Assembly: GCA_017439555.1 (NCBI GenBank)
Contig: JAFSIZ010000072.1
Location: 1-38,760, forward strand
Source: Oscillospiraceae bacterium
GTDB taxonomy: Bacteria > Bacillota > Clostridia > Oscillospirales > JAAYXM01
Direction of reading: 5' to 3'
Length of the DNA stretch: 38,760 bases
Shown: one piece after another, positions 3,468 to 38,673 of the stretch
Layout: every line of letters begins with the position of its first letter
How positions within the stretch are numbered: the stretch's first letter is position 1
Program-made: the position numbers and the translations under genes
The notes under the pieces: generated by a model
The model's input: the letters and a program-made list of their open reading frames with translations, nothing else
Databases searched by the model: none
What the model was told of the DNA's origin: nothing

Positions 3468-3488
3468 CTCAACTGCCTCCGTAAATTT

Positions 3489-3827: not shown

Positions 3828-3839
3828 ATCAAAAACTCC

Positions 3840-21545: not shown

Positions 21546-22727
21546 TTACGCTTTGTTGAAATATTTCATCGGATCCGTATGTTTTCCGTTTATGAGAATC
21601 TCAAAATGAAGATGTGGCCCCGTCGAATAGCCTGTTGAGCCGACAAGCCCGATAACATCGCCCTTTGTCACCTTCGCGCCCTTCTTCGTCTTTATTTTGC
21701 TCATATGGGCATACAACGTCGATTTGCCGCCGCCATGGTCAATAACGACATAGTTTCCATAGCCCTTGCTCGACCAACCTGCCACAACAACCGTTCCGCT
21801 GTTGGCAGCATATATCTCCGTACCCATACCGGAGCCTATATCAATACCTGTATGCATTGAGCTTTTTTTCGTAATCGGGTCTTTTCTCGTGCCATAGTAT
21901 GATGTGATTCTCGTCGCCTTCGTCGGCCAACGGAATTCACCGCCGACATATTTTGACGATGTCGAAGTCGAGAGCAGCTTCTGAAGCGATGCACGTGTCG
22001 AAGCCATTGCCCTTTCAGCCTCATCAAACGCCTTCTCGTATTCGGCTGCGGATGCGTTGAGCGATTTTATAAGGGTATTTGCCTCTTTATATTGGCTCTC
22101 GAGAGAGTTCTGCCTGTCAACAAGTGTTCTCTTCGCGTTTGCCTGTTCTGCGCGCGAATTATCAAGAACAGCCTTTTTCTCGGCTATCTTTGAGCGCGTT
22201 TCGGCTATCTGCGCCAGAAGCTTTTTATCTCCCTCAACAATGCTGCCTATGAGCTCGGTGCGCGTTATCATATCAGAAAAGCTGTCTGCGGAAAGAATGA
22301 TGCCTATCATAGAGGGCGTGCCCTCTTCCTCCATCACCCTGACACGCGTGAGAAACGCCTCGGTCTGCTCGCGCTCCTCAGCCTCGGCAGCCGCAAGCTC
22401 CGCTGCCGCCTCCGCTATTTGAACATCGAGAGCTTTTATGAGCGAATTTATTGTATCAATCTCGCGCTCCGTTACGTCTATCTGCTGATCGAGCGCGGCC
22501 TTTTTCGTCATCGTTGACTGTTTTTTCGCCTCTATTGCCTTGAGCTCTTTTTGAATCTTTGCTTTTTCATTCTGAAGATTCGTGAGCTGCTTGTTAAGGC
22601 TTGACACCGTCTGCGCGGCAGAGGCCTTGCCATATATCGCAATCTCCGCAACAAGAGCGAAAACAAGCGTAAAGGCAATGACGCCTGCAATGATTGCGGA
22701 TATTATGCGTACTGTTTTTTGGCTCAT
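21546..22727 (-). CDS. EnvC-like murein hydrolase activator / M23 peptidase with coiled coil
   Basis: A 393-residue wall enzyme or hydrolase activator. An N-terminal membrane anchor or signal (about residues 8-30) is followed by a long coiled coil (about 33-250, with LTNLQNEKAKIQKELKAIEAKK) and an M23 LytM domain at about 262-393. The metal ligands are intact: HTGIDIG and GPHLHFEI, so it is likely a zinc endopeptidase itself and not only an activator, as EnvC is. It lies directly after ftsX; in E. coli and Firmicutes FtsEX drives such coiled-coil partners across the membrane during division. AAGGAGG precedes the ATG. Confidence 0.94.
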   Translation of the reverse strand: MSQKTVRIISAIIAGVIAFTLVFALVAEIAIYGKASAAQTVSSLNKQLTNLQNEKAKIQKELKAIEAKKQSTMTKKAALDQQIDVTEREIDTINSLIKALDVQIAEAAAELAAAEAEEREQTEAFLTRVRVMEEEGTPSMIGIILSADSFSDMITRTELIGSIVEGDKKLLAQIAETRSKIAEKKAVLDNSRAEQANAKRTLVDRQNSLESQYKEANTLIKSLNASAAEYEKAFDEAERAMASTRASLQKLLSTSTSSKYVGGEFRWPTKATRITSYYGTRKDPITKKSSMHTGIDIGSGMGTEIYAANSGTVVVAGWSSKGYGNYVVIDHGGGKSTLYAHMSKIKTKKGAKVTKGDVIGLVGSTGYSTGPHLHFEILINGKHTDPMKYFNKA

Positions 22728-22781
22728 GCTGCAGCCTCCTTGTTTTTATAAAATATATCTCCGGCTCTGTAGCTTTAAACT

Positions 22782-23669
22782 TTATACCTTCAGGAACTTT
22801 CTCAATGTTATCGCGCTTCCCAGCCCTCCGACGAGCAAAGCCACACCATAGAACATAATCAGAATAAGCGACATACATTCGCCGAAGGCTACAACCGGCA
22901 TAAAGCTGAGCGTTGAGAGCGCACCGACAACAAGATACTCATATACTATCCATTGCAGCCCAAGCGCAAGCGTTGCACCGGCAAGGCCAATGAGTACACC
23001 CTCGATAATAAACGGAATTCGCACGAATCCGTTTGTTGCTCCTATCATTTTCATAATTGCTATTTCCTCGCGGCGGTTGAACATCGTGAGGTTTACTGTG
23101 TTGGAAATGATAAATATCGATACGAACATAAGGATGAGGATGAGAACTGTGCATATTGCTGTCGTGACATCTCTCACCTGCATAATTTTATCGGTTATAT
23201 CACTTCTCGCACGGACATTCGCAACACCCTCTATCGTCTCAAGAGCATCGGCTACTGCCTGTGTTTGCGAAATGTCGCGGAGGGTTATCGTAAATCTGTC
23301 GCGCAGGGGGTTTCGCGCATCAAGCCCGTCGAGAATTCCGCTTTCGTCTCCGAAGTCCTTTTTGAAATTGTCAAGAGCCTCCGTCTTTGTCATAAACGAT
23401 GCCGAAGCGACGCCGTCTATATCTGTTATCTGCGTCTCAAGAGAGCGCGCCTGCTCCTCCGTGTAGGTCTCATTTACAAAAGCAACTATTTCGTTTTTGT
23501 TTTCGACATCCTCTAAAAGCTTGTCTATGTTCACCGCAACGAGCGAGAAGCTTCCCATAAGCAAAAGGCAGGCGGTGATAACACTCATTGCCGCAAAACT
23601 CATAAGGCGATGGGAGAAGATGCTTGAAATTCCCTCGCGCAGAAAATATGTAATATTATAAATTTTCAT
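22782..23669 (-). CDS. ftsX: Cell division ABC transporter permease FtsX
   Basis: A 295-residue permease with a helix at about residues 24-47, a long extracellular loop (about 48-160) that should contact the wall hydrolase, and three helices at about 163-190, 210-235 and 260-285. Conserved features are NTVNLTMFNRREEIAIMKMIGA on the cytosolic side and a C-terminal MRKFL-like end. ATG at 23669 is preferred: it gives the normal MKIYNITYFLREG start, and GGGTGGG lies ten bases before it. It overlaps ftsE by 14 bases. Confidence 0.97.
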   Translation of the reverse strand: MKIYNITYFLREGISSIFSHRLMSFAAMSVITACLLLMGSFSLVAVNIDKLLEDVENKNEIVAFVNETYTEEQARSLETQITDIDGVASASFMTKTEALDNFKKDFGDESGILDGLDARNPLRDRFTITLRDISQTQAVADALETIEGVANVRARSDITDKIMQVRDVTTAICTVLILILMFVSIFIISNTVNLTMFNRREEIAIMKMIGATNGFVRIPFIIEGVLIGLAGATLALGLQWIVYEYLVVGALSTLSFMPVVAFGECMSLILIMFYGVALLVGGLGSAITLRKFLKV

Positions 23670-24345
23670 TCTGATAATACCCACCCATTTTGTCGCTGAT
23701 AATGCGCCCCTGGTCTATTGCAATAACACGCTTTGAAAACTCGTTTACAAGCTCGCGCTCATGTGTTACGACAAGCATCGTCGTTCCAAGCTCGTTTATC
23801 TTTTCGAGCAGGCTCATAATTTCTATCGACATCTTCGGGTCGAGATTTCCTGTCGGCTCGTCTGCGATTATCATACTCGGATTATTCACAAGAGCACGCG
23901 CAACCGCGACTCTCTGCCGCTCGCCGCCCGAAAGCTCGTTCGGGAACGATTTCATCTTGTGTTCAAGCCCGACAAGCTGAAGCACATAGGGCACACGCTT
24001 TTTTATTATACGCGGCGGTGCACCGACAGCGCGCATAGCAAATGCGACATTTTCATATACCGTCTTTTTGTCTATGAGCCTGAAATCCTGGAACACTATT
24101 CCGACAGACCTTCTCAGCTCAGGTATCTTCGACGGCTTGATGCGATTGAGGTTAAAGCCGTTTACAATACCTCTGCCCGAGGTCATTTTGACTTCGCTCG
24201 TCAGTATCTTCACTATTGTCGATTTTCCCGAAGCTGACGAACCGACGAGGAATACAAACTCCCCATCGTCTATCTTGAGATTGATACCCGACAGAGCAGG
24301 TGTGCCGTTTTCATACACCTTGCATACATCGAGAAGTCTTACCAT
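23656..24345 (-). CDS. ftsE: Cell division ATP-binding protein FtsE
   Basis: A 229-residue ABC ATPase. Walker A GSSASGKS is at residues 35-42, the Q loop is in GIVFQDFRL (82-90), the signature LSGGE is at 138-142, and Walker B MIIADEP is at 158-164. Together with FtsX it couples ATP hydrolysis to wall-hydrolase activation at division. It starts 21 bases after the CdaR-type regulator, overlaps ftsX, and is part of one operon. A Gly-to-Ala-like choice in the Walker A loop is normal. Confidence 0.97.
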   Translation of the reverse strand: MVRLLDVCKVYENGTPALSGINLKIDDGEFVFLVGSSASGKSTIVKILTSEVKMTSGRGIVNGFNLNRIKPSKIPELRRSVGIVFQDFRLIDKKTVYENVAFAMRAVGAPPRIIKKRVPYVLQLVGLEHKMKSFPNELSGGERQRVAVARALVNNPSMIIADEPTGNLDPKMSIEIMSLLEKINELGTTMLVVTHERELVNEFSKRVIAIDQGRIISDKMGGYYQNENL

Positions 24346-24366
24346 TTTCCCACATTCCTTTCAGCT

Positions 24367-25458
24367 TTAAAAAGCAGATCCCTGTATGGACAGATATTTC
24401 TTGACCATAAGCGCAACCTTGAAGATGATTGCGTGATCAAACTCGCGAAGGTCAAGCCCTGTGATTTTCTTTATTTTTTCAAGGCGGTAGACGAGCGTGT
24501 TTCTGTGAACAAAGAGGTTTCTTGAAGTCTCCGAAACATTGAGGTTATTCTCAAAAAACTTCTGTATTGTCATAAGTGTTTCGGAATCGAGCGCATCGAG
24601 GGAATTGTTTTTGAAAACCTCCGACAGGAACATCTCACAAAGTGTTGTCGGCAGCTGATATATGATGCGGCCGATGCCGAGGCTCTCATAGCTCATAACA
24701 TCGCGCTCTGTATCGAATATTTTGCCGACATTGATTGCCGACTGCGCCTCTTTATATGACACTGCAAGGTCCTTGAGCGACGGCGCAACCGTGCCGATGC
24801 CTATTTCCGTCTTCAGAAGAAGCTCTGCCTTGAGCGTGTCGCGGATGCTTTCGGCAACCTTTATGAATTCCTTCGGATCTGTATTCTCGTTCGTCTCACA
24901 GATAAGAGCAATCTCCTCTTCGCTGATGCTCACAACAAAATCCTTTGACTTGTCAGGGAACATATTTGCAACGATGTCAACTGCGGCATTGTCGCAATTC
25001 TCAACCTGACGGATGAGATAGACCACATATGGCACATCCTGCGGCATACGCAGCTCATTCGCCTTCATATATATGTCACCTGAAAGAATGTTGTCTAAAA
25101 TGATGTTTTTGATAAAGGTCGCGCGGTCGTGCTTTTCGTCATAATATTTTTTTGCATTTCCGACTGCAAGCGCAGCCATCACGCAAAGGCTTTTTGCATA
25201 TTCATCCTCGCCCGAAACGAACACGACATATTCAAACCTCGCGCCGGGAGTGGCAACGGGTTTATAGGTGTCTCCGTCCTGGACGATATATGAACCGATC
25301 ATTTCCTCAAGGGCATCAAGCGCACCTGCACGGACAGTGCCTTTGAGAGCCGGGTCCGTACACGCGACGATCTCGCCGCTTATGTTGATAACACCGATGA
25401 TGCGATCGGTTGCCTCCTTCATCTGAAGTATTGTGTTCTGAAGCATTCTCCAAGCCAT
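24367..25458 (-). CDS. CdaR/PucR-family transcriptional regulator
   Basis: About 363 residues. A sensor-like N-terminal region with a GAF-type look (IIGVINISGEIVACTDP near residues 20-36) leads to a GGDEF-like middle domain (about 165-260). The C-terminal PucR helix-turn-helix is clear: LNVSETSRNLFVHRNTLVYR and KKITGLDLREFDHAIIFKVAL, at about residues 309-350. Such proteins usually respond to a metabolite and act on nearby genes. Here the gene is first in the ftsEX operon and has its own promoter, so it may control its own operon. ATG at 25458 is a best guess; ATG at 25470 has no room for a ribosome binding site, since AAGG touches it. Confidence 0.88.
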   Translation of the reverse strand: MAWRMLQNTILQMKEATDRIIGVINISGEIVACTDPALKGTVRAGALDALEEMIGSYIVQDGDTYKPVATPGARFEYVVFVSGEDEYAKSLCVMAALAVGNAKKYYDEKHDRATFIKNIILDNILSGDIYMKANELRMPQDVPYVVYLIRQVENCDNAAVDIVANMFPDKSKDFVVSISEEEIALICETNENTDPKEFIKVAESIRDTLKAELLLKTEIGIGTVAPSLKDLAVSYKEAQSAINVGKIFDTERDVMSYESLGIGRIIYQLPTTLCEMFLSEVFKNNSLDALDSETLMTIQKFFENNLNVSETSRNLFVHRNTLVYRLEKIKKITGLDLREFDHAIIFKVALMVKKYLSIQGSAF

Positions 25459-25501
25459 ACGTTCAACCATCCTTAAAAATTGACATACTGAGTCGTATTA
25501 T

Positions 25502-25530
25502 ATTGTAACAAATAAACAGCCTAAAATCAA
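25502..25530 (-). promoter_or_regulatory. Promoter for the regulator-ftsEX operon
   Basis: TTGATT (25530-25525), a 17-base spacer and TACAAT (25507-25502). A second TATAAT-like box follows a few bases downstream. It begins right after the ribF stop codon (25551). Confidence 0.75.
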
Positions 25531-25550
25531 TGAATTTTCTGTAAAAATAT

Positions 25551-26435
25551 CTAAAAAAGTCTCTTCACAGCCTCCACGTCACGTGCAATCTGCTCACGCA
25601 GAAGCCCGACGTTCTCAAAACGCATTTCATCGCGGACAAAGCTTATGAGCTCTGTCTTTATCACCTTTCCGTATAAATCCCCGGAAAAACCGAATATGTT
25701 TGTTTCTGCGCGCGGCATAGACACTTCCGAAACCGTCGGGCGCGTGCCGATATTCGTTATTCCGCCAAAGCTCTTTCCCTCAAACGTCACGCGCGAGGCA
25801 TAGACACCGAAGCGCGGAAGCAGAAGCTCTTTGGAAAGCTCCTGATTTACAGTCGGAAATCCCATCGTCCCTCCGAGCCTTGCACCATGAGAAATTTCGG
25901 ATATTATACAATGATTATGCCCGAGCAGCTTTGCGGCATTCTCCATCTCACCCATTTCGATGCATCTGCGGATGCGCGAAGAGCTGACAGGCTCTCCGCC
26001 GACCGTAACCGCGTCTATGATATCACATCCGATGCCACGTTGCGCGCAGAGACGGCGCAAAGTCTCCGCGTCTCCCGCTCCGCTTTTTCCGAACCTGAAA
26101 TCAAAGCCTGCGACAACGTGGCAGGCGCCGAGCGAACCAAGAAGAGTTTCTTCAAAAAAGCGTTCACACGGCATAGCCGCATATTCGGGCGTGAAATCAG
26201 CAACTATTATGTCATCTATGCCATAAAGCTCTCTTATCAGCACACAGCGCTCATAAGTCGTGTTGATAAGCCTGACACAGCTCTTTCCGACAACTGCAGA
26301 CGGGTGGCGCGAATAGGTCAGCACCGCAGCCGATGCCCCGATTCTCTCTGCCGTTTCACGCGTTTTTTCAAGCAGAGCACCGTGACCTATGTGCACCCCG
26401 TCAAAAAAGCCGAGTGCGACAACTCTCTTTTTCAT
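25551..26435 (-). CDS. ribF: Bifunctional riboflavin kinase / FAD synthetase
   Basis: A 294-residue enzyme making FMN then FAD from riboflavin. The nucleotidyltransferase domain carries GFFDGVHIGHGALL (residues 9-22, the HxGH site) and the GFDFRFGK segment; SSSRIRR near residue 152 is also conserved. The flavokinase domain starts near residue 160 (ISHGARLGGTMGFPTVN) with TNIGTRPTV. It is the last gene of the nusA operon, three bases after truB, with GAGGTG before the ATG. No terminator is obvious before the next promoter. Confidence 0.96.
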   Translation of the reverse strand: MKKRVVALGFFDGVHIGHGALLEKTRETAERIGASAAVLTYSRHPSAVVGKSCVRLINTTYERCVLIRELYGIDDIIVADFTPEYAAMPCERFFEETLLGSLGACHVVAGFDFRFGKSGAGDAETLRRLCAQRGIGCDIIDAVTVGGEPVSSSRIRRCIEMGEMENAAKLLGHNHCIISEISHGARLGGTMGFPTVNQELSKELLLPRFGVYASRVTFEGKSFGGITNIGTRPTVSEVSMPRAETNIFGFSGDLYGKVIKTELISFVRDEMRFENVGLLREQIARDVEAVKRLF

Positions 26436-26438
26436 AGC

Positions 26439-27293
26439 CTACACCTCAAAAAAGCTCTTTACGGTTTTGAGTGCGCCATCCTCCGCACCTTCGCCAACCA
26501 TAAGAAACTCTCCGCTTTCGCTGTATACGCGATACTTCACACCGTTTTCGGCAGACGACGGAACAGGAGCGCCGTTGCGGCATTTCTTCTCGCCTTTCGA
26601 ATCTATCGTTATTGCAGGATATTGCTCAAACATAAAATCAACCGGAAGAAGCGAAGGCGATGCCTCTATCTCCTCTATTGTGCGCGCCTTATCTATCGTG
26701 AATATTCCCGATTTCGTCCTTCTGAGAGCAGTCATCGAAGCGCCGCAGCCAAGCTTTTCACCTATATCGAATATAAGAGTGCGGATATATGTACCCTTCG
26801 AGCATACAACATCAATCTCATATTCATCATCCGAAACACGGCGCGGCTCTATTGAATGAACCGTTATCGCGCGAGCTTCACGCTCGACACTTTTGCCCTC
26901 ACGCGCAAGCTTATAGAGCGGCACGCCATCTATCTTGAGCGCCGAAAACATCGGCGGTGTCTGCATAATATCGCCGCAAAAGCTGCGGCATGCGGCAAAA
27001 ACCTCTTCACATCCGGCTTTCACATCCCTCTCACACAACACCTCACCCGTGATATCCTGAGTGTCTGTCACTATGCCGATGCGAAACCTTGCCGTATATG
27101 CCTTTTCATCAGAAAGCGCAAACTCGCAGGCGCGCGTCGCTCTTCCGACAAAAACAGGCAGCACACCTGTCGCCATAGGGTCAAGCGTGCCCGAATGGCC
27201 GACGCGCCGTGTTCCGAAAATTCTCCGCATACGCGACACGACATCGTGGGATGTGATGCCCTCGGGTTTATCTACAATTACTATACCGTTCAT
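26439..27293 (-). CDS. truB: tRNA pseudouridine-55 synthase
   Basis: A 284-residue enzyme that makes pseudouridine 55 in the T loop of tRNA. The catalytic motif GHSGTLDPMATGVLPV holds Asp38. YTARFRIGIVTDTQDITGEV and GTYIRTLIFDIGEKLG are also typical. The C-terminal part is a short PUA-like segment (PAITIDSKGEKKCRNGAP). GGAAGG lies before the ATG. TruB and TrmFO in this window modify neighbouring bases (55 and 54) of the same loop. The usual gap after rbfA contains a hairpin. Confidence 0.97.
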   Translation of the reverse strand: MNGIVIVDKPEGITSHDVVSRMRRIFGTRRVGHSGTLDPMATGVLPVFVGRATRACEFALSDEKAYTARFRIGIVTDTQDITGEVLCERDVKAGCEEVFAACRSFCGDIMQTPPMFSALKIDGVPLYKLAREGKSVEREARAITVHSIEPRRVSDDEYEIDVVCSKGTYIRTLIFDIGEKLGCGASMTALRRTKSGIFTIDKARTIEEIEASPSLLPVDFMFEQYPAITIDSKGEKKCRNGAPVPSSAENGVKYRVYSESGEFLMVGEGAEDGALKTVKSFFEV

Positions 27294-27328
27294 TTTATAC
27301 CTTCCGAATATATATCTTCCTAATTGAC

Positions 27329-27359
27329 TTTGCGGAACACAAAATATGTGTTCCGCAAA
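27329..27359 (-). other. Perfect 13-bp hairpin between the rbfA-nrnA fusion and truB
   Basis: Arms 27329-27341 and 27347-27359 are perfect complements around a 5-base loop, four bases after the fusion's stop codon. No T run follows on the minus strand, so it is not a standard terminator. It may protect the upstream mRNA from decay or be a cut site. Confidence 0.55.
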
Positions 27360-27362
27360 AGC

Positions 27363-28667
27363 CTAAAATAATTCAAGTTCTTCAATCTTTGCGCAGATGA
27401 GCTTTTCCGCATCATCAACAGACACTTCAAGCGTGCAGCCTGCCGCGCGCTCGTGTCCGCCGCCGCCGAAATGGGCGCAGAACGCCGCTGAATCGACCTT
27501 TTCATCAGAGCGGAGCGACACCTTTGCCGCGCCGTCCTTTTCGTGGATATAGATGCCGAGCGAAACGCCCTTTGCAACACGTGCAAGCGCAGAGAGCCCG
27601 TCGAGATCGTCTTCTGTTGCGCCGATCCTCCTGACAGTCTCATCAGAAAGCTTTATTATCGCAACTCTGCCGCCGAAGCAGATGTTCATACCTCCGAGCA
27701 GCTCAGCCTCGAGAGCTATGCGCGCAGGTGTTTTCTCTGTGAAAAACTCGCGGTTGATGCGCACAAAATCAGCGCCGCGTGCAATGAGCTCCGCCGCTTT
27801 TCTATGAGTTTCGGGGGTTGTGTTACTGTGGAGAAAGCGACCTGTGTCCGTCGAGATAGCAACATAAAGGGCATCTGAAAGCTTTTTAGTGAGCTTCACT
27901 CCCATTTCCGAGGCAAGATCATATATGATCTCGCCGCAGGCAGCTGCATCCGCATTCACACACGTGCGGCTTGCATATTCCCTATGTGTTATATGATGGT
28001 CGATTGCGATGGCAATATCATCCGCATATTCCTCAGAGCCCTTTGAAAGCAGCTTTTTATCCGCACAGTCAACCGCCGCAACGCACATCGGTGAAAAGCC
28101 CTCCGGCGCAAGATATGGCTTTACAAGCTTGCGCAGCTTTTTATTGAACTCGGGATTTTCAAACACATATGCCTCTTTCCCTGATGCACGGAGAATTGCG
28201 GCAAGAGCCACAGCCGAGCCGACAGTATCGCCGTCCGGGCTCTTGTGTGTGAGAATGAGTATATCATCGCGCGTTTTCAGAAACTCCGCCGCTCCCGCAA
28301 CATCGAGGCTGCGCTTTTTGCTGTCATCGCGCGAGGTTTTGTCTATAAGCTCCATAATGTGAGTTCCGGACACTATCGAATCGTCCGCAATAAACGTAAG
28401 CTCAGGCGTATAGCGCAGGCGAAGCTTGCGCGCTGCCTCGCGGCGCAGATATCCCGATGCCGCAGTAAGCCCCTTTATGCAGTCGCGCGCATTATCACCC
28501 GAGCCGAGCACGCTGACAAATACGCGTGCGCTGCCAAGATCCGGCGCAGTTTCGACCCTGACAATACTGACAAGGCCGCTGACGCGCGGATCACGGACAG
28601 TTCTCAGAAGCTCAGAGAGAACTCTCATAAGCTCGTCGTTTACACGACCAATACGTACACTTCCCAT
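27363..28667 (-). CDS. Fusion of ribosome-binding factor A and DHH phosphoesterase NrnA
   Basis: A 434-residue two-domain protein. Residues 1-113 are a full RbfA: RIGRVNDELMRVLSELLR, DPRVSGLVSIVRVETAPD and ARVFVSVLG, then the helix ending at HIMELIDK. Residues about 117-434 are an NrnA-type nano-RNase/pAp phosphatase: HKSPDGDTVGSA (141-152), DHH at 223-225, STDTGRF near 272, and the DHHA1 motif GGGGHERAAG at 401-410. The joint is a short charged linker (TSRDDSKKRS, 111-120) with no stop codon. RbfA matures the 30S subunit, while NrnA degrades 2-5 nt RNAs. In most Firmicutes these are adjacent separate genes. Confidence 0.93.
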   Translation of the reverse strand: MGSVRIGRVNDELMRVLSELLRTVRDPRVSGLVSIVRVETAPDLGSARVFVSVLGSGDNARDCIKGLTAASGYLRREAARKLRLRYTPELTFIADDSIVSGTHIMELIDKTSRDDSKKRSLDVAGAAEFLKTRDDILILTHKSPDGDTVGSAVALAAILRASGKEAYVFENPEFNKKLRKLVKPYLAPEGFSPMCVAAVDCADKKLLSKGSEEYADDIAIAIDHHITHREYASRTCVNADAAACGEIIYDLASEMGVKLTKKLSDALYVAISTDTGRFLHSNTTPETHRKAAELIARGADFVRINREFFTEKTPARIALEAELLGGMNICFGGRVAIIKLSDETVRRIGATEDDLDGLSALARVAKGVSLGIYIHEKDGAAKVSLRSDEKVDSAAFCAHFGGGGHERAAGCTLEVSVDDAEKLICAKIEELELF

Positions 28668-28673
28668 AAAACG

Positions 28674-31022
28674 TTAATCCTTTACCTGTACCATTTCATA
28701 TGCTTCAACAACGTCGCCTTCCTTGATGTCGTTGAAGTTTTCTATGCTGAGACCGCATTCATAGCCGGATGCGACCTCCTTTGCATCATCCTTGAATCTC
28801 TTGAGCGATGCAAGTGCGCCCTCGAATACAACAATACCGTCACGCACAATACGCACGCTTGCATTTCTTGTAATCTTTCCGTCTGTGACGTGGCAGCCGG
28901 CAATTGTGCCGATTTTCGAAACCTTGAAGGTCTGGCGGATTTCGGCGTGACCGAGAACCTCCTCGCGGAATTTCGGTGCGAGAAGACCCTTCATAGCTGC
29001 TTCCATCTCTTCGATGCAATCATAGATTATGCGATAGGTGCGGATATCCGTTCCCGATGCAGCCGCACTGTCACGCGCACCTGCGTCCGGGCGGACATTG
29101 AAGCCGACAACAATAGCATTCGATGCCGATGCAAGAAGAATATCGGATTCGTTGATAGCGCCGACACCTGTGTGGATAACACGGACGCGCACCTCTTCGT
29201 TTGTGAGCTTTTCGAGAGAAGCCTTGACAGCCTCCGCTGTTCCCTTAACGTCTGCCTTGACGATAATCGGAAGCTCCTTGATTTCGCCCTGCTGGATCTG
29301 ATCGAAGAGATCCTCGAGCGATACCTTGCGAGCCATAGATTTGTTTGCCTCGTCCTTTTCCGTCTGCTTGCGCTGCTCAACGAGTTCACGCGCCATACGC
29401 TCATCGTCTACCGCATAGAAGATGTCGCCTGCATTCGGAACCTCTGAGAGACCTATGATTTCAACAGGAACAGACGGGCCTGCTGTCTTGATTTTTCTGC
29501 CCTTGTCATCTGTCATTGCACGGATACGTCCGACGCTTGTGCCTGCAATAATGACATCGCCGGAATTGAGCGTGCCGTTTGATACGAGCAGCGTTGCAAC
29601 CGGGCCGCGGCCGCGGTCAAGCTTTGCCTCGACGACAGTTCCCTTTGCGGCTCTGTCCGGGTTTGCCTTGAGCTCGAGCATATCAGCTGTGAGGATGACC
29701 ATCTCGAGAAGATCGTCTATTCCGTCTCCGCGCTTTGCGGAAATCGGGCAGACTATCGTGCTGCCGCCCCATTCCTCGGGGACGAGCTCATATTCTGTGA
29801 GCTGCTGCTTTATTCTGTCGGGGTTTGCGCCCTCAACATCCATCTTATTTACCGCAACAACAATCGGAACGTTTGCAGCCTTTGCGTGGTTGATAGCTTC
29901 TATTGTCTGCGGCATGATTCCGTCGTCAGCTGCAACAACAAGGATAACAACGTCTGTTACCTGCGCACCTCTTGCGCGCATTGATGTGAACGCCTCGTGA
30001 CCCGGTGTGTCGAGGAAGGTGATTTTCCTTCCGTTTATCTCGACGCGGTAAGCACCGATGTGCTGTGTGATACCGCCTGCCTCACCGGATGCAACATTTG
30101 TCTTTCTGACAGCATCGAGAAGAGATGTCTTACCATGGTCAACGTGACCCATAACGACGACAACCGGATCTCTTCCCTTGAGGTCCTCAGCGCTGTCCTC
30201 GTGCTCATCGATAAGCTTATCTTCAATGGTTACAATAACCTCTTTTTCAACCTTTGCGCCCATTTCAAGCGCAACGATTGCCGCGGTGTCGTAATCGATA
30301 ACATCGGAAAGCGATGCCATAACACCGAGCTTTATAAGCTGTTTGACAACATCCGCGCCTGTTCTCTTCATTCTCGAAGCAAGCTCTCCGACGGAAATTT
30401 CATCAGGAATCTGAACTGTGACCTGAACCTTCTTCTGAACCTGCTGTTCAAGCCTTCTCATCTTATCCTGCTCTTCCTGGCGACGCTTCGAGGACTGGCT
30501 CTGCTGCTGGCGGCGATCTCCGCTCTTCTTTATCTTCTGCTTCTGAACGCCGATATCGCGGACCCTGTCCGGAACAAGGCTGTCCACGCGGTCGTCATAT
30601 TTTGAAAGGTCAACAGAGCCGCCGCGCGTGTCGATGACATGGGTCTGCACGCCCTTCTTTGAGGGAGCCGGAGCCTCCTCCTTCTTTGCAGGAGCTTCTT
30701 CCTCTGCTTTTTTTGCCGGAGCATCTGCCGGCGCAGGCTCTGCCTTCTTTGTTTTCTTTTTCGGAGCCTCTGCCTCTGCAGGTGCAGGTGCAGCTTCTCC
30801 CTTTTTATCGCTATAGGTTTCAGACATCAGCCTCTCAAAGCTCTCAACCTGATTTCTTGATGTGAGAACATCGAAAATGATATTGAGCTCTTCATCGCTC
30901 AATGCCTGCATATTGGATTTCGGCGCGGTTGCGTATTTCTCAAGAATCTCGCTTATCACCTTTGCCGTAACTTCAAAATCTTTTGCCACATCACGGACTC
31001 TGTATTTCTGTGCGCTGCTCAT
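28674..31022 (-). CDS. infB: Translation initiation factor IF-2
   Basis: A 782-residue GTPase that places initiator tRNA on the 30S subunit. The N-terminal IF2_N helix-rich segment (about 1-55) is followed by an Ala-, Pro-, Lys- and Glu-rich linker (about 75-125) and a basic Gln-rich stretch. The G domain has G1 GHVDHGKT at about 292-299, then DTPGHEAF and NKMD. EF-Tu-like domain II and the C-terminal domains complete it. ATG at 31022 has GGAGGTGG eight bases before; a GTG at 31034 is too close. It sits between ylxQ and the rbfA fusion, as in other Firmicutes. Confidence 0.98.
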
Positions 31023-31066
31023 ACAGCATTCCACCTCCGTTTGAATTTGGGTTTTGCCACGATTGT

Positions 31067-31459
31067 CTATTTTTTCTTACCTTTATTTTTACGTGCCGCT
31101 ATTTTCTTTGCGCGCGCTTCTATTTCGGGAAGCCGCTCTGCTGCTTCTTCATTGACAGCCGCAAGCTTTTTGACTATTGCCGCCGCAAGGCCTATGTCAC
31201 ACACCGCAACCGTCGCACACGGGCGGCGGCCGAGCGCGTTGCCGAGCTCTTCGCGGCTCTCACTCACCTTTATGTGAGGGACATTTACATTCTCAGTCAG
31301 AAACGAGAACGTTCCATAGGTTCTTTCCGACGCATCGGACGCCGTCAATATGAGCCTTACCTTGCCTGCATTAAGCGCCGCACGGCAAGCCTCATCGCCC
31401 GCTTCAACAAAGGACGCGCGCTTTGCAAGACCAAGAAGGCCGAGATAACTATTTTCCAT
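31067..31459 (-). CDS. L7Ae-family RNA-binding protein (YlxQ type)
   Basis: A 130-residue small RNA-binding protein of the L7Ae/L30e family, related to the kink-turn binders. The fold runs [21 protein letters not shown], then [14 protein letters not shown], then [17 protein letters not shown] Lys-, Arg- and Ala-rich tail follows ([19 protein letters not shown]). ATG at 31459 is backed by GGAGGGTGAAG. It overlaps ylxR by 11 bases. In many Firmicutes this gene lies between ylxR and infB; its RNA target is not known. Confidence 0.9.
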
Positions 31460-31730
31460 CTTCACCCTCCGCAAGCTTGTTTTCGAGCTCTGCATATACC
31501 TCAGGAGAAATCTGGCAGGAAAACGCACGCTCAAGCGCCTTTGATTTTTTCGCACGGGCAAGGCACTGTGCATCTGCACATATATATGCCCCGCGCCCCG
31601 GAAGCTTTCCGACAAAATCGAGCGATATTTCGCCCTCTTTTGATTTGACAGCCCGGATAAGCTCACGCTTCGGGCGCATTTCGCGGCAGCCGACGCATTG
31701 GCGCATCGGTATCTTTTTTTCTTTTATCAT
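31449..31730 (-). CDS. YlxR/RnpM family RNA-binding protein
   Basis: A 93-residue protein of the YlxR family (RnpM in Bacillus, reported to modulate RNase P). The conserved RQCVGCREMRPKRELIRAV (about residues 9-27) and GRGAYIC are present, along with CLARAKKSKALERAF. ATG at 31730 follows AAGGCGG; a GTG at 31739 is too near that site. It lies 22 bases after nusA and overlaps ylxQ. Confidence 0.93.
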   Translation of the reverse strand: MIKEKKIPMRQCVGCREMRPKRELIRAVKSKEGEISLDFVGKLPGRGAYICADAQCLARAKKSKALERAFSCQISPEVYAELENKLAEGEDGK

Positions 31731-31752
31731 GCCGCACACACCGCCTTTTTAT

Positions 31753-32808
31753 TTATATGACGGCGCTTGCGGGCTTGATGTCTATCTTGAAGCCTGTAAG
31801 CTTTGCGGCAAGACGCGCATTCTGGCCGTCCTTGCCTATTGCAAGCGAGAGCTGATCATCTGCAACAACCACGCGGCAGGTGCGCTCTTCTTCGTCTGTT
31901 TCAACGGACACAACATCTGCAGGAGCAAGAGCTGCCGCAACATATTCGCCCATATTTTCGGAATATTTAACGATATCGATCTTCTCGCCGCGGATTTCCT
32001 CAACAATCGCTGCGACACGGTTGCCGCGCGGACCTACGCAAGCGCCGATCGGGTCAACGTTTTCATCATTTGAATGAACAGCGATTTTCGTTCTTGAGCC
32101 TGCTTCACGCGCAATGCTCATAACCTCGACTGTGCCGTCATGAATTTCCGGAACCTCAATCTCAAACAGGCGGCGTACGAGGCCGGGATGTGTTCTCGAG
32201 ATGATGATCTGCGGTCCGCGGTCACTTCTCTTGACCTCGACAACATAGATCTTGATGCGGTCTCCTTCCTTGAGCACCTCGCCCGGGATGAGCTCTTTTG
32301 CGGAAATATAGACCTCTGTCTTGTCATTTGCGCCTGTTATCTCAATGGATGCGCCGCCGCTTCTCGGATCAGTGCGCGTTACAAGCGCTGTGATGATTTC
32401 GTGTTCCTTTGAGGTGAACTCGCGGAAAACAACGCCGCGCTCTGCCTCGCGGATACCCTGAATGATAACCTGCTTTGCCGTCTGAGCCGCAATTCTTCCG
32501 AAGTCGCGTGTTTCGATATCGATGTTCACAACATCGCCGATGCCGACCTTCTTTGAAATCTTCTTTGCATCGTCAAGGCTTATCTCCTCTGCCGGATTCT
32601 CGACAGCTTCAACAACAGTCTTTCTGACGAACATACGGAACTCTTTCTTCTCGCAATCCGGCTCTACGAAAACGTTGTCAACAACGCCTGCGTTGTCTCT
32701 CTTATATGCCGCGAGAAGAGCCTGGGCAATTTTGTCGAGCATATAGTCCTGAGGAATGCCCTTTTCCTTTTCGAGCTGCTCGATAGCAGCAAAAAATTCT
32801 GCGTTCAT
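31753..32808 (-). CDS. nusA: Transcription termination/antitermination factor NusA
   Basis: A 351-residue protein that binds RNA polymerase and RNA to control pausing and termination. An N-terminal domain (about 1-125), an S1 domain (about 130-200) with IKIYVVEVKRS, and KH domains (about 205-345) are visible. KH landmarks include GSRTKIAVHS, DPIGACVGPRGNRVAAIVEE and SLAIGKDGQNARLAAKLTG. There are no C-terminal acidic repeats, as usual for Firmicutes. It is the second gene of the operon, 38 bases after rimP. Confidence 0.98.
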   Translation of the reverse strand: MNAEFFAAIEQLEKEKGIPQDYMLDKIAQALLAAYKRDNAGVVDNVFVEPDCEKKEFRMFVRKTVVEAVENPAEEISLDDAKKISKKVGIGDVVNIDIETRDFGRIAAQTAKQVIIQGIREAERGVVFREFTSKEHEIITALVTRTDPRSGGASIEITGANDKTEVYISAKELIPGEVLKEGDRIKIYVVEVKRSDRGPQIIISRTHPGLVRRLFEIEVPEIHDGTVEVMSIAREAGSRTKIAVHSNDENVDPIGACVGPRGNRVAAIVEEIRGEKIDIVKYSENMGEYVAAALAPADVVSVETDEEERTCRVVVADDQLSLAIGKDGQNARLAAKLTGFKIDIKPASAVI

Positions 32809-32846
32809 TTTTATAACCGTCCCCTTTTTATATCTTATTTTTTGAT

Positions 32847-33302
32847 TTAAAATTCAACGCGCAGCCTTACGGACGCGATTTCCTTCTTTGTGAATTCAAT
32901 AATCTCGCCATCGTCATCAAGAGTGACGTTGCCGTCATCATAGCCTGCAAGCTTTCCCCAGAACTCTTTTCTGCCGTTTTTCGGAGAAAAGGTTTTAAGA
33001 GTTATCGCGCTGCCCATATATTTTTCAAAATCGCCCGGACGATAGAGCCTGCGCTCAAGCCCTGCACTCGATACCTCGAAAATATATGACTCCGCTATCG
33101 GGTCAGCATCATCAAGCACCTTGTCGAAAGCGCGTGAGAAGCTTTCACAATCATTGATATCGACACCGCTTTCCTTGTCGATATACACGCGGAGATATCT
33201 CTCTCCGCCCTCTTTCACGAACTCTACATCCCAGATTGAAAGCCCGAGCTTTTCTGCAATGGGAATTGCAAGAGCCGTAACGATCTCTGTTACCTTGTTC
33301 AA
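32847..33302 (-). CDS. rimP: Ribosome maturation factor RimP
   Basis: A 151-residue factor for 30S assembly. The N-terminal alpha/beta domain has LGLSIWDVEFVKEGGERYLRVYID (in part) and VDINDCESFSRAFDKVLD. The second, SH3-like domain contains SSAGLERRLYRPGDFEKYMG and WGKLAGYDDGNVTLDDDG. The start is TTG at 33302 with AAGGGG seven bases upstream; a longer frame would enter the leader hairpin. It is first in the operon. Promoter, long hairpin and ribosome binding site follow one another within 80 bases. Confidence 0.95.
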   Translation of the reverse strand: MNKVTEIVTALAIPIAEKLGLSIWDVEFVKEGGERYLRVYIDKESGVDINDCESFSRAFDKVLDDADPIAESYIFEVSSAGLERRLYRPGDFEKYMGSAITLKTFSPKNGRKEFWGKLAGYDDGNVTLDDDGEIIEFTKKEIASVRLRVEF

Positions 33303-33321
33303 AAAAACACCCCTTACAGTA

Positions 33322-33355
33322 ATTCGAGAGTGGACGTTTTCGCCCACTCTCGAAT
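33322..33355 (-). promoter_or_regulatory. Strong hairpin in the rimP-nusA leader
   Basis: Arms 33322-33333 and 33344-33355 give a perfect 12-bp stem. Three further inner pairs, one a G-U, leave an AAAA loop. It starts about 16 bases after the predicted transcription start and ends 19 bases before the TTG start. A run of seven T follows the ribosome binding site (33307-33301). In Bacillus subtilis the nusA operon is reported to be autoregulated by a NusA-dependent terminator in its leader; a similar role here is an inference. Confidence 0.6.
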
Positions 33356-33377
33356 CCTACTTACTTACTATATGGCG

Positions 33378-33406
33378 ATTATACCATATTTATCCTTAAA
33401 AAGCAA
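33378..33406 (-). promoter_or_regulatory. Promoter for the rimP-nusA-infB operon
   Basis: TTGCTT (33406-33401), a 17-base spacer and TATAAT (33383-33378), with an extended TGG before the -10 box. AT-rich sequence, suggestive of an UP element, lies upstream, toward the S41 protease stop codon. Confidence 0.85.
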
Positions 33407-33434
33407 GTTTTTTCTCAAAAAAGTTTTATTTTCG

Positions 33435-34922
33435 TTATCCTCGCTTGAAATCTATGACACTTTGATCGACACATTCAGCCTTTTTGTCAGATTCGGAATA
33501 TGTTTTTGCAATCTCTATCGCCTTTTCAAGCTGTGTATCATTCGGAACATATTTATATTCAAGCTTGTGTGCCGCATCGTCAATCTTCTGTATGAGCTCC
33601 CACTTACAGATGCTCGTTATCTGTGTAAGGTTATTGTCGCGGCAGAAAAGGTTTACGGCGTGGACGGTGCGCTTATCCCACACGTCATCAGGCGTCGAAT
33701 AGAAATAGCCGAGCTCACGCAGACGCTCCTCAAGCGCACGGACATTCTCAGTCTTTATCTTGCTTGCATCCATCTTTGATTTGAGCGGCGTGAGATAGGG
33801 CAGCTTATATTGCTCAAGGCGAAGCGACACCTTATAGTCAGGCTCTATGCCGATAGCGTCATAGCCGCCGCTTACAGGAAGCTTGAGCTCAAGCGCCGTG
33901 ACTACAGCCTCGTCACCCGTGCTCGTCTCCATATGCACCTGACCTCTGCCCTTGCCATAGGTTGTATCGCCGACAACAACAGCATATCCGAGATCCTGCA
34001 TTGCGCCTGCCATAATCTCAGATGCCGAAGCCGTCTGGCCGTTTACGAGAATTACAAACTTGTTGAACTCCCAGCCATAGCCCTCTGTTGTATATGTTGT
34101 GACTTTAAGCGGCTTTGCCTGCCACGTTGTAAGATAGGGCACATCTGCCTTCGGGATGATATTGTCCATAAGATTTATGAGGCAATCGAGCTGGCCACCC
34201 GGATTGTTGCGAAGATCGAGGATGACTGTGTTTATCCCCTTTTCTTCAAACTCATCATACACCTTCATAAAATCTATGAAAGAGGTTATTCCGTTAAAAT
34301 GAGAGAGCTTTATGTAACCGATTTTATCGTCTATATATGCGCTCGTGACATCAGATGTTGCAATCGTCGCACGCTTTACGTTGAAGGTCAGAAGCTCTTC
34401 TCCGCGAAGCACCTTGATTCTGACGCTTGTGCCCTCTTTTCCTTTTATGAAGTTTACCGCTTCCTCCGGAAGGTAGCCTTCGATATTCATTCCGTCAGCC
34501 TCGACAAGCTTGTCGCCGACCTGAATGCCGGCCTTTTTTGCCGGCCCCTCCGACACTCCCTGCACCGTCAGATACCCATCGTCCGTCGCGGCTATCACAA
34601 CACCGATACCGACCATTGTGTTTTCACTCTGATAGTTTTCCTCATAGCCTTCGCTTGAAAGGTAATGGGAATAGCGGTCATCGCGGCTGTAGATTCTTTC
34701 CATTATCTCATAGAAAAGATTGGGGTCTTCCTCCATCATCTCAACAATAGCCTCGCGCAGATAGTCTGTGTCGTCGTTGGAAAACAGCCCGAAGCTTTTA
34801 TAGATATCAAGAGCCTCGTCAATCTTCGCATTGTAATCGACGTCTGCCGCCGCTGCACACAGCGCGAGCATCATTACAACAGCAAGCAGCGTTGCCACGC
34901 TTCTTATAAAACCTTTTTTCAT
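33435..34922 (-). CDS. Secreted S41 family protease with PDZ and peptidoglycan-binding-like tail
   Basis: A 495-residue exported serine protease. A signal peptide (about residues 3-27, ending near ALCAAAADV) is followed by a prodomain and a PDZ domain (about 95-180). The core has Ser299 (QTASASEI) and Lys324 (TYGKGRGQ), 25 apart, the Prc/CtpB dyad. The C-terminal part (about 395-440, RALEERLRELGYFYS, DDVWDKRTVHAVNLF) resembles the PG_binding_1 repeat, suggesting wall attachment. ATG at 34922 fits GGAGG eight bases upstream. It follows the DUF1934 gene by 24 bases and is a paralogue of the protease at 20248. Confidence 0.94.
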   Translation of the reverse strand: MKKGFIRSVATLLAVVMMLALCAAAADVDYNAKIDEALDIYKSFGLFSNDDTDYLREAIVEMMEEDPNLFYEIMERIYSRDDRYSHYLSSEGYEENYQSENTMVGIGVVIAATDDGYLTVQGVSEGPAKKAGIQVGDKLVEADGMNIEGYLPEEAVNFIKGKEGTSVRIKVLRGEELLTFNVKRATIATSDVTSAYIDDKIGYIKLSHFNGITSFIDFMKVYDEFEEKGINTVILDLRNNPGGQLDCLINLMDNIIPKADVPYLTTWQAKPLKVTTYTTEGYGWEFNKFVILVNGQTASASEIMAGAMQDLGYAVVVGDTTYGKGRGQVHMETSTGDEAVVTALELKLPVSGGYDAIGIEPDYKVSLRLEQYKLPYLTPLKSKMDASKIKTENVRALEERLRELGYFYSTPDDVWDKRTVHAVNLFCRDNNLTQITSICKWELIQKIDDAAHKLEYKYVPNDTQLEKAIEIAKTYSESDKKAECVDQSVIDFKRG

Positions 34923-34946
34923 TTGCATTTCCTCCCTGTTCCCGAA

Positions 34947-35381
34947 TTAATTTGCAGCTTCGCGGATGTCCATACACAACGCACTTTCCCCGGCTACTGC
35001 ATTGTTTATCTCCATTGCATAATCTATCTTCATATGACCTCCGGTCTCACCGAAGCTCTTGTCGATGCTTCTCGTGCTGACTCCGACAGTAAGTGAGCCA
35101 AAGCCCATATCATAATATGAAATGTGCTTCTGCCCCTCTTCGAAAATCATATGTGTCTCAAGGTCTCCGAAGCGGATGACTGTTACCTTGTCCTTCTCGA
35201 CCTTGACCGTTGTCGTTGTGTTGCCGAGACCCGTGAGCTCGCTTTCCTTATATGATACATAATAGATGCCGTTCTTTTCATAGAAGCGGCCGCTTGTGAC
35301 AAGCTCTATATTCTCGTTTTCCGCTTCTTCAAAAGACTGAAGGCCGCGGATTGTTATTATAACGTCCTTTTTAATGCTCAT
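34947..35381 (-). CDS. DUF1934 domain protein (YwiB-like)
   Basis: A 144-residue protein of the DUF1934 family, predicted lipocalin-like beta barrel. The diagnostic DVIITIRGLQ start, ELVTSGRFYEKNGIYYVSYKE and GLGNTTTTVKVEKDKVTVIRFG are visible, with a C-terminal IDYAMEINN. No signal peptide is present. Function is unknown for the family. It sits between murI and a secreted protease, so a link with wall metabolism is only suggestive. Confidence 0.88.
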   Translation of the reverse strand: MSIKKDVIITIRGLQSFEEAENENIELVTSGRFYEKNGIYYVSYKESELTGLGNTTTTVKVEKDKVTVIRFGDLETHMIFEEGQKHISYYDMGFGSLTVGVSTRSIDKSFGETGGHMKIDYAMEINNAVAGESALCMDIREAAN

Positions 35382-35412
35382 TGATATTTCCTTTCCGTCA
35401 TAGCTTATCGCC

Positions 35413-36213
35413 TTATTTCCCGACAGTTTTCAGCTCCACCTCACCGCAGAGGCTTTTACCGAGAAACTTTGATGCATTTTCCGAAAAACCGTCGCGGTCA
35501 TCCGATACAAAAAACCTGCAGCTTCCTCCGCTCGCGTTCTGTGCAGCGCCGATACTCTGCTTTAAATAGCCTGCTGCCTCAAGCCCCGGGTTTATGAGCG
35601 CAGTCTTCTCCCCCATATATTTTGCGATTGCGCGCTCGATTATCGGATAGTGTGTGCATCCCATAATGAGCGTATCGACACCCTCCGCCTTTATCGGCGC
35701 GAGATATTCCTCTACCATCGTATACAATACGACATCGTCCGGGTCGCATCTTCCGTTTTCAACCAGCGGCACAAACAGCGGACAGGCAGCTGTGAATATT
35801 TTTGCTCCGGAGCAGAGCGACATTATCTCACGCTCATATGAGCGACTTCTGACAGTCGCGCTCGTTCCTATTATTCCTATCCTTCCGTTCTTCGTCGCCT
35901 CAACCGCCGCGCGCGATGCCGGCTCTACAACGCCGATTATCGGTATATCATATTCTTTCCTGATCCGCGGAAGCGATACGGAGCTGGCTGTTCCGCAAGC
36001 CATAATAACAGCCTTTATATCGAAGCTCTTTAGAAAATCAATATCCTCGCGGACATAGCGCATAATAGTATTCTCAGACCTTGTGCCATATGGCACGCGC
36101 GCAGTGTCGCCGAAATATACGATATCCTCTCCCGGGAGCAGCTTCATAATCTCCGCAACGGCAGTAAGCCCGCCAAGCCCCGAATCAAAAACGCCTATCG
36201 GACGGTTATCCAT
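35413..36213 (-). CDS. murI: Glutamate racemase
   Basis: A 266-residue enzyme giving D-glutamate for peptidoglycan. The N-terminal IGVFDSGLGGLTAV (residues 6-19) contains Asp10 and Ser11. Catalytic Cys73 is in MACGTASS and Cys186 in MGCTHYP (with His188). Position 74 is Gly where most members have Asn, an oddity that recurs in some Clostridia as far as I recall. The start lies two bases after ddl, with GGAGG inside the ddl end. The pairing with ddl puts two D-amino-acid steps of wall synthesis together. Confidence 0.97.
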   Translation of the reverse strand: MDNRPIGVFDSGLGGLTAVAEIMKLLPGEDIVYFGDTARVPYGTRSENTIMRYVREDIDFLKSFDIKAVIMACGTASSVSLPRIRKEYDIPIIGVVEPASRAAVEATKNGRIGIIGTSATVRSRSYEREIMSLCSGAKIFTAACPLFVPLVENGRCDPDDVVLYTMVEEYLAPIKAEGVDTLIMGCTHYPIIERAIAKYMGEKTALINPGLEAAGYLKQSIGAAQNASGGSCRFFVSDDRDGFSENASKFLGKSLCGEVELKTVGK

Positions 36214-36215
36214 CT

Positions 36216-37265
36216 CTAATCCTCCATCGCAAAGGCTATTATTTTGTCAAGCAATTCCGAAAAACCGATTCCGCACGCATCAAAGAGCTTTGCATACATG
36301 CTTATGCTTGTGAAGCCCGGAATCGTGTTTATCTCATTGAACACAATTCCGCCGTTGTCCTTATCGATGAAGAAATCGACCCTTGAAAGACCGCGGCATC
36401 CGATTGCCATATATATCTTCTTTGCATAGGCGCGGATTTCCTCTGCCGTCTGCTCCGGAATATTTGCCGGAATCGGAGTTTCTGAGGTGTTGTCTATATA
36501 TTTTGATTCATATGTATAAAACTCACGCGAGGGAATAACCTCGCCGCAGACTGAGACAACCGGATTGTCGTTGCCAAGCACCGCCGTCTCTATTTCGCGC
36601 GCGTTGATAAATTCCTCAACAAGCACCTTTCCGCCATAGCGGAGCGCATCGGAAAGCCCCTCGGAAAGCTGCTCTCTGTTTCTTGCCTTTGATGTGCCGA
36701 CAGACGAGCCCGTTCCTGCAGGCTTTATAAACACGGGGTATGTAAACTTTTTCTCAATCTCATCCATAATTGCATCGCCGAAGTTTCGCTTTGTAACGAG
36801 CATCCAGTCTGCCTGGCGCACGCCTGTGGTTGCAGCGACAAGCTTTGTGAGCGATTTATCCATCGATACAGCGCTTGCGGCACAGCCGGGTCCGACACAG
36901 GGGATACCTGCAAGCTCACACATTCCCTGCACTCTGCCATCCTCTCCGTTTTCGCCATGAAGCACAGGAAAAACGACATCGAGCGGAATAAGCTCTCCAC
37001 GATCAGGAAGCACGATACCGCTGTGGCTGCGGCTTATGGAAAAGGTGCAGCTGTGCTTGTCATCGCGGTTCCATACCTCTGCATTTATTTCATCAGCGGA
37101 AAGAGATGGAAAATAATACCAGTCCCCATCCTTTGTAATGCCTATAGCAGTGACGTTGTATTTGCTGCGGTCCAGCCCGCGGCATACGCTTGCAGCCGAC
37201 AGAAGAGACACATCGTGCTCGCTTGATGCGCCGCCAAACAGGACACCGAGATTAATTTTCTGCAT
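36216..37265 (-). CDS. ddl: D-alanine-D-alanine ligase
   Basis: A 349-residue ATP-grasp ligase that makes the D-Ala-D-Ala end of the wall precursor. Visible are GVLFGGASSEHDVSLLSA (about 7-24), PVLHGENGEDGRVQGMCELAGIP in part, the ATP lid GTGSSVGTSKARN and VEEFINAREIETAVLG. NEINTIPGFTSISMYAKL, which carries metal and product-binding residues, is near the C-terminus. TGGAG precedes the ATG by ten bases. It is the first gene of the ddl-murI-DUF1934-S41 operon. No clear minus-strand promoter could be called in the 110-base upstream gap. Confidence 0.97.
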   Translation of the reverse strand: MQKINLGVLFGGASSEHDVSLLSAASVCRGLDRSKYNVTAIGITKDGDWYYFPSLSADEINAEVWNRDDKHSCTFSISRSHSGIVLPDRGELIPLDVVFPVLHGENGEDGRVQGMCELAGIPCVGPGCAASAVSMDKSLTKLVAATTGVRQADWMLVTKRNFGDAIMDEIEKKFTYPVFIKPAGTGSSVGTSKARNREQLSEGLSDALRYGGKVLVEEFINAREIETAVLGNDNPVVSVCGEVIPSREFYTYESKYIDNTSETPIPANIPEQTAEEIRAYAKKIYMAIGCRGLSRVDFFIDKDNGGIVFNEINTIPGFTSISMYAKLFDACGIGFSELLDKIIAFAMED

Positions 37266-37320
37266 TTTATAACAACTCCATTACGGTTTTAAAATTTTTC
37301 TTCACCTGATTATTTATATG

Positions 37321-37349
37321 TGGAAAAAGAAACGCATATGTTGTATAAT
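37321..37349 (+). promoter_or_regulatory. Candidate promoter for the plus-strand hypothetical gene
   Basis: TATAAT at 37344-37349 with TGGAAA (37321-37326) 17 bases upstream, a 4 of 6 match to the -35 consensus. AAGGTG lies just before the ATG at 37376. Confidence 0.55.
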
Positions 37350-37375
37350 CATAAGTATTAAGGTAAGGTGATTAT

Positions 37376-37783
37376 ATGAATATAGAATTTACATCAAAGC
37401 AGTTCCGCAGGCTTTTAGACCTCGTCTATATAGGAAACTGGGTGCTCAACTCCGCACGCGGAAACGACAGAATCAAGGATTTCGACGATGTCGAGAGCTA
37501 TCTCTTTTCCCAGTGTCCGAGGTTTGATATGAACACTCTTTTCGAGATATCGGAGGGCGAGGTTATCCCTTCAAAGGCATTTTCGGAAGGCGGCATCCAC
37601 GAAGCAATTATGGACTATGAGGACACCGTGTTTTTCGAAATTCTCGCCGAAGAGCTTGCGCAGCGCGATATAACCGATGGCTCGTGCCCGAGCGATGAGC
37701 TTATGGCAAGGCGCGAGGGCTATATCCGCGAATTTGAGCGCAACGGAATTGCAAACGTCAGCGTTGACAGCTCAGATTTATGA
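37376..37783 (+). CDS. Hypothetical protein, the only plus-strand gene
   Basis: A 135-residue acidic protein of unknown function, with no membrane helix or signal. The N-terminus (FTSKQFRRLLDLVYIGNWVL) looks like an amphipathic helix, and the middle and C-terminal parts are rich in Asp and Glu (DYEDTVFFEILAEELAQRD). I have an impression of a conserved Clostridial family but cannot name it. AAGGTG lies five bases before the ATG, and a promoter-like pair is upstream. It is divergent from ddl and convergent with the hemolysin III gene, its stop codon five bases from that gene's stop. Confidence 0.8.
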   Translation: MNIEFTSKQFRRLLDLVYIGNWVLNSARGNDRIKDFDDVESYLFSQCPRFDMNTLFEISEGEVIPSKAFSEGGIHEAIMDYEDTVFFEILAEELAQRDITDGSCPSDELMARREGYIREFERNGIANVSVDSSDL

Positions 37784-37788
37784 TATAC

Positions 37789-38511: not shown

Positions 38512-38538
38512 ATTATTTTCTCCTTGTAGCCGTTTAAT

Positions 38539-38567
38539 ATAATACCACCTTTTAAAGGAAAATACAA
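38539..38567 (-). promoter_or_regulatory. Promoter for the hemolysin III family gene
   Basis: TTGTAT (38567-38562), a 17-base spacer and TATTAT (38544-38539) with an extended TGG before the -10 box. Confidence 0.7.
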
Positions 38568-38601
38568 CGCAATTTTTGTAAACAAATTTTACTTTTACAT
38601 A

Positions 38602-38649
38602 AAACACAAGTACCCTTTCCGTGTATTTTCGGAAAGGGTACTTGTGTTT
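38602..38649 (-). terminator. Perfect 20-bp terminator hairpin
   Basis: Arms 38602-38621 and 38630-38649 pair perfectly around an 8-base loop, 24 bases after the stop codon of the partial gene. A short T run follows on the minus strand. Confidence 0.88.
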
Positions 38650-38673
38650 ATATTTATTTTTTAGAAGCTAAGT

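Follow-up and report, generated by a model that had tools for sequence, protein, structure and literature searches.

A genus-fixed and recurrent in-frame fusion of RbfA with an NrnA-type phosphoesterase, as read from clostridial genome sequences

The stretch of DNA analysed here (the window) is a contig of 38,760 nucleotides, one of the 200 contigs of a 2.7 Mb metagenome-assembled genome (MAG) that is 84% complete. On its minus strand, positions 27363..28667 hold a gene that runs as a single frame of 434 amino acids from an ATG at 28667 to a TAG stop at 27363-27365, and this open reading frame bears out the first-pass annotation, which had read two proteins, RbfA and NrnA, in one frame without naming the strand. 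The N-terminal part is an RbfA (KH-like) domain (residues 4-107; 28347..28658, minus strand; PF02033 and TIGR00082), and the C-terminal part, residues 121-434, is a complete NrnA-type DHH-DHHA1 phosphoesterase. They are connected by a charged joint of about SRDDSKKRSLDVAG (residues 111-124; 28296..28337, minus strand), the linker-spanning stretch of the protein lying around KTSRDDSKKRSLDVAGAAEF, and codon 105 (28353..28355, minus strand) is an in-frame ATG near this joint. The DHH domain (residues 135-270; 27858..28265, minus strand; PF01368) contains the motifs HKSPDGD (141-147), VDCAD (199-203) and DHH (223-225), with STDTGR (272-277) just past its end, while the DHHA1 domain (residues 349-423; 27399..27623, minus strand; PF02272) carries GGGGHERAAG at 401-410. 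The gene is preceded by infB (28674..31034, minus strand; TIGR00487) and followed by truB (26439..27293, minus strand; TIGR00431). Family-model matches give the order nusA-rnpM-L7Ae-infB-rbfA/nrnA-truB-ribF, and these genes form the usual operon of Bacillota.

A hairpin with a 13-bp perfect inverted repeat (27329..27359, minus strand) lies 3 nt past the stop codon of the fused gene, before truB. Its motif, TTTGCGGAAC...GTTCCGCAAA, occurs exactly once per genome and at the same site in all five genomes of the window's genus (g1), with nearly invariant arms and a variable loop. The sister genera, in which truB abuts or overlaps nrnA, have no such hairpin at that place. Since it has no U-tract it is not a standard terminator, and an Rfam search of positions 22000-38760 returned no match. 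Covariation is uninformative here, because 11 of the 12 pairs of the core never vary.

Both halves of the protein are recognized by family models, in agreement with the earlier claim that an intact RbfA is joined to an NrnA-type enzyme with its key motifs, DHH at 223-225 and GGGGHERAAG at 401-410, kept. The RbfA half reaches 101 bits against PF02033 (E 5e-29, cut-off 34.7) and 79.6 bits against TIGR00082 (cut-off 51.15); DHH (E 9e-16) and DHHA1 (E 4e-8) also score above their Pfam cut-offs, and no catalytic motif of the DHH-DHHA1 family is missing. The NCBIfam equivalog model for NrnA, NF053633, has a threshold of 350 bits that is not reached, the NrnA half scoring 101.8. For this reason we call the protein NrnA-type and not a certified NrnA equivalog, and a score of 102 out of 350 bits would leave the exact substrate of this half unproven. 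An AlphaFold model built from 64 rows has a mean pLDDT of 94.9 and a pTM of 0.74, with each domain confidently modelled; the joint is the least confident part, its blocks having pLDDT values of 71-79 compared with mostly more than 90 in the domains. In this model, where the interdomain placement is not fixed, the last RbfA helix (97-119) leads almost straight to the N-terminal helix of the NrnA half (123-131). The RbfA half (model residues 5-97) superposes on Thermus thermophilus RbfA (2dyj) with Z 16.1 and an rmsd of 1.5 A over 89 aligned residues, and the NrnA half superposes on the TM1595 phosphodiesterase (Z 39), Rv2837c (Z 37), S. aureus NrnA (Z 34) and Bacillus NrnA (Z 28).

Compared with known proteins, the RbfA half resembles members of PF02033 and TIGR00082 in having the whole KH-like domain with its C-terminal helix, and in its operon place after infB. 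However, RbfA ordinarily ends at about 115-130 residues, whereas this protein bears a C-terminal enzyme of some 310 residues. Likewise, the NrnA half shares the full DHH-DHHA1 fold and motifs with B. subtilis NrnA, S. aureus NrnA/Pde2, TM1595 and Rv2837c, but these are stand-alone enzymes, and the window protein, fused to RbfA, has 22-28% identity to its solved relatives. NrnA has been described as a stand-alone protein without extra domains (PMC12709177), a description from which the window protein departs by having RbfA in the same frame.

Is the fusion real, or did an assembly or sequencing artefact erase a stop codon or shift the frame? The window comes from a draft MAG, and a fusion found in one genome elsewhere (G413, discussed below) does lie on an A7 homopolymer next to a split sister species. 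Moreover, a random stretch of 14 codons stays open about half of the time, and so an open joint in a single genome would be weak evidence, while conservation is strong evidence. In this sense, the five species of the genus, separately assembled, all carry the identical 434-codon frame with no stop or indel; in a whole-genome search the fusion proteins of the other four were 72-78% identical to that of the window and of the same length. Synonymous differences among the five coding sequences are near saturation (pS 0.64-0.68 in the domains), and the fusion is seen in five more species, spread over three genera of a second family. An artefact is therefore of negligible probability: a slip cannot recur in this way in five species, and where a stop and a new start between the halves had been named as the pattern that would speak against a fusion, all close relatives within the genus are fused. 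The pN/pS ratios of the five species (0.20 for RbfA, 0.28 for NrnA and 0.45 for the joint) indicate that both halves are under purifying selection. Each of the five genomes of the genus gave a single RbfA match, and besides the fused gene the only NrnA-type match was a GdpP-like protein of 660-680 amino acids. The fused gene thus appears to be the sole source of both activities, within the 84-87% completeness of these MAGs, in whose missing sequence a second copy could sit.

The joint is conserved in length but not in sequence within the genus, as exemplified by SRDDSKKRSLDVAG, AREDSKKRTLDVAG, SKTEEKKKHLDVEG and AKKDDDKRKLIPET. The first-pass annotation had taken a conserved linker as a sign of a real fusion; the length part of this expectation holds, being fixed in five species, and the sequence part fails, as the joint has a pN/pS of 0.45 against 0.20 and 0.28 in the flanking halves. 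No start codon lies within the joint in any of the five species, nor did we find a Shine-Dalgarno sequence before any nearby start. The sole in-frame ATG near the joint common to all of them is codon 105. It could be argued that the two proteins are fused in sequence only and that free NrnA is also made, by initiation at this ATG or through proteolytic cleavage of the charged linker, given that the ATG is invariant and in frame in the five species and that the linker is the part modelled with the least confidence. Nevertheless, no Shine-Dalgarno motif precedes this ATG in any of them (0/5), a start there would leave about 20 surplus residues ahead of the NrnA domain, and its methionine belongs to an old RbfA residue pattern (IMEL) that recurs in three out of four relatives with split genes. 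We consider the production of free NrnA very unlikely.

The split arrangement is seen in the nearest relatives of the genus. In four genomes of the same family, from three sister genera (G005-G008), rbfA and nrnA are separate genes and nrnA is in the +1 frame. In two of them (G005 and G008) the nrnA start precedes the rbfA stop codon by 8 or 11 nt, each time with GGAGG upstream; in G007 the start is 1 nt past the rbfA stop, and in G006 some 45-50 nt past it. More broadly, the two genes are neighbours across the Clostridia sampled, and in every split locus examined (113/113) they are adjacent on one strand, as expected from the earlier remark that they are separate neighbours in most relatives. 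In G089, of family f15, RbfA lies on contig C21 with no usual strong NrnA match, and the strongest NrnA-type matches are a pair of distant DHH-like frames in tandem (C38:23258-25074), which suggests that the operon nrnA was lost or replaced. In G199 (C6:5000-10500) the nrnA frame, at 2909-4144 of the locus, has about 412-418 amino acids, some 90 residues more than usual, possibly owing to a fusion to the next gene or to a C-terminal extension. Finally, in family f13, G075 (C47:20351-21277) and G366 (C3:7841-8755) have second NrnA-like copies, comparable in strength to the first, within frames of 618 and 613 amino acids that are perhaps another NrnA fusion architecture.

The first-pass annotation had advised looking for the same joint in independent genomes; besides its presence in all five members of the genus, 434 codons each, fused frames were found well outside it. 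The least biased count comes from an order-wide survey with the RbfA model and a complete listing of matches, where 9 of 121 RbfA-bearing genomes carry a fused RbfA frame: the five of the window's genus, three of genus g44 (family f15) and G068 (family f2). In a wider sample of the order at least two further genomes, G260 and G162, both of f15, are fused among the matches listed. Family f15 has five fused species in three genera, its other members being split or having no clear state, while G068 is the lone fused member of f2. A sample of the class added at least one fused frame, G413, among the matches listed, and in a sample of the phylum only the window passed as fused among the matches listed down to the score limit. 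The listings for the wider order, the class and the phylum were all cut by score, and weaker fusions may be missed in each of them. Some long frames were rejected as fusions. By frame length G009, G022 and G336 seemed fused but are split genes or out-of-frame readings of infB, the latter being the case of G022, the tenth long frame of the order sample; in G179 a frame of 486 amino acids is split by a TAA.

A tree of the RbfA and NrnA domains, with the linker excluded, requires four changes of state, all forced by well-supported branches. At least three of them remain without G413, and two of the fused groups rest on several species each. A single origin for all fusions is rejected (AU test, p 0.0003), as is a clade joining genus g1 and f15 (p 0.0005). 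By this sequence phylogeny the fusion in f15, a different family of the order, has an origin of its own. The tree alone does not give the direction of change, and gain of the fusion is favoured over loss because nearly all relatives are split. G068, a single MAG that retains an ATG with GGAG upstream, probably represents an extra fusion. As a fourth fused lineage G413, a distant clostridial MAG, is doubtful, because its joint lies on an A7 run (near position 2530 of locus C270:19000-25000, where the frame is open), the genes are split in its sister species G566 and a TTG preceded by AGGA is still present in G413. In that sister species the two genes are separate and overlapping, with a TTG start, and an indel error at the G413 joint is possible. 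The linkers vary in sequence and length from lineage to lineage. Taken at the level of sequence, these data confirm the fusion as genuine, fixed in the genus and recurrent.

What this arrangement does may be considered from what is known of both partners. The 5' end of 16S rRNA has been linked to RbfA via the central pseudoknot, and it had been proposed at the outset that the fusion brings the RNase to 16S 5'-end processing. This proposal is not supported and fits poorly with the position of RbfA at the 3' side of 16S rRNA and with NrnA substrates of 2-4 nt. On 16S rRNA, RbfA binds to h28, to the two linkers h28/h44 and h44/h45 and to the 3' end; the C-terminal helix of the protein extends to uS7 and partly obstructs the path of the mRNA (PMC9917171). 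The NrnA of B. subtilis works as an exonuclease in the 5'-3' direction on RNA of 2-4 nt and is poor on pAp and c-di-AMP (PMC9757072), although NrnA relatives vary in substrate and their annotation is incomplete (PMC12709177). An enzyme limited to RNA of 2-4 nt would at most clear fragments that have already been trimmed. A tethered role at the 30S subunit is possible, and the enzyme would then sit on the 3'/mRNA-path side rather than at the 5' end in particular.

It is probable, in our judgement, that this is a true fusion within the operon yielding one two-domain protein in which each half would keep its usual job, co-expression having been turned into a single chain. Possibly the two genes already overlapped or lay almost end to end, and a small indel or deletion, the only change needed, united them. 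The RbfA half would still mature 30S subunits and the NrnA half would still degrade RNAs of 2-4 nt cell-wide, and the single translation start would fix their ratio at 1:1. While RbfA is bound, the nanoRNase would ride pre-30S particles, tethered by the C-terminal helix of RbfA near uS7 and the mRNA path, a location that is probably a by-product and not a purpose; our default assumption is that there is no functional interplay between the halves. Alternatively, selection may have favoured the fusion for an action of NrnA on the pre-30S particle, where it would clear fragments of 2-5 nt left by the trimming of 16S rRNA or take up the mRNA path. The existence of at least two independent origins with several species each agrees with such selection, and so does the position of the RbfA helix at uS7 and the mRNA path, where the C-terminal extension of mitochondrial RBFA (mtRBFA) has been suggested as a filler of the path, a part that, as the same authors suggest, another protein may play in bacteria (PMC9917171). 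Against it, all split genomes examined have the genes next to each other, often in frame, which makes fusion mutationally easy; besides, the fusion is rare in the order sample (9/121), the linkers differ between lineages in sequence and length, and NrnA acts on RNA of 2-4 nt (PMC9757072). We regard functional tethering as unlikely. Somewhat more doubtful is its specific form, in which the NrnA domain, held at the uS7/mRNA-path side, would remove tiny rRNA or mRNA fragments or block the mRNA channel as a bacterial counterpart of the mtRBFA extension. The mitochondrial protein is similar in having a C-terminus prolonged past the KH domain (PMC9917171), but its extension follows the mRNA channel whereas the fusion has a folded enzyme domain.

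We return to the simpler reading, a two-domain protein born within the operon. It is like other fusions between adjacent genes of an operon, in which neighbours, presumably co-transcribed, have been joined several times independently, and it is in this sense an ordinary kind of event. In the literature searched we found no publication on an RbfA-NrnA fusion, in line with the first-pass annotation, which knew of none; papers naming both proteins were off topic by title and abstract, and no functional link between rbfA and nrnA was found in the same literature. The finding combines two known families in a new arrangement of domains, and any mechanism that goes further than what the two halves do by themselves stays hypothetical. 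Repeated independent fusion is a classical hint of a shared process or place, and the fused protein offers a natural, ready-made tether for asking whether the clearance of nanoRNAs touches ribosome assembly. If NrnA works on the assembling subunit, these fusions would reveal a connection, overlooked so far, of RbfA with nanoRNA turnover in Bacillota, a phylum in which rbfA and nrnA often lie next to each other. If they reflect only operon drift, annotation is still corrected, in that NrnA-type enzymes are not always stand-alone.
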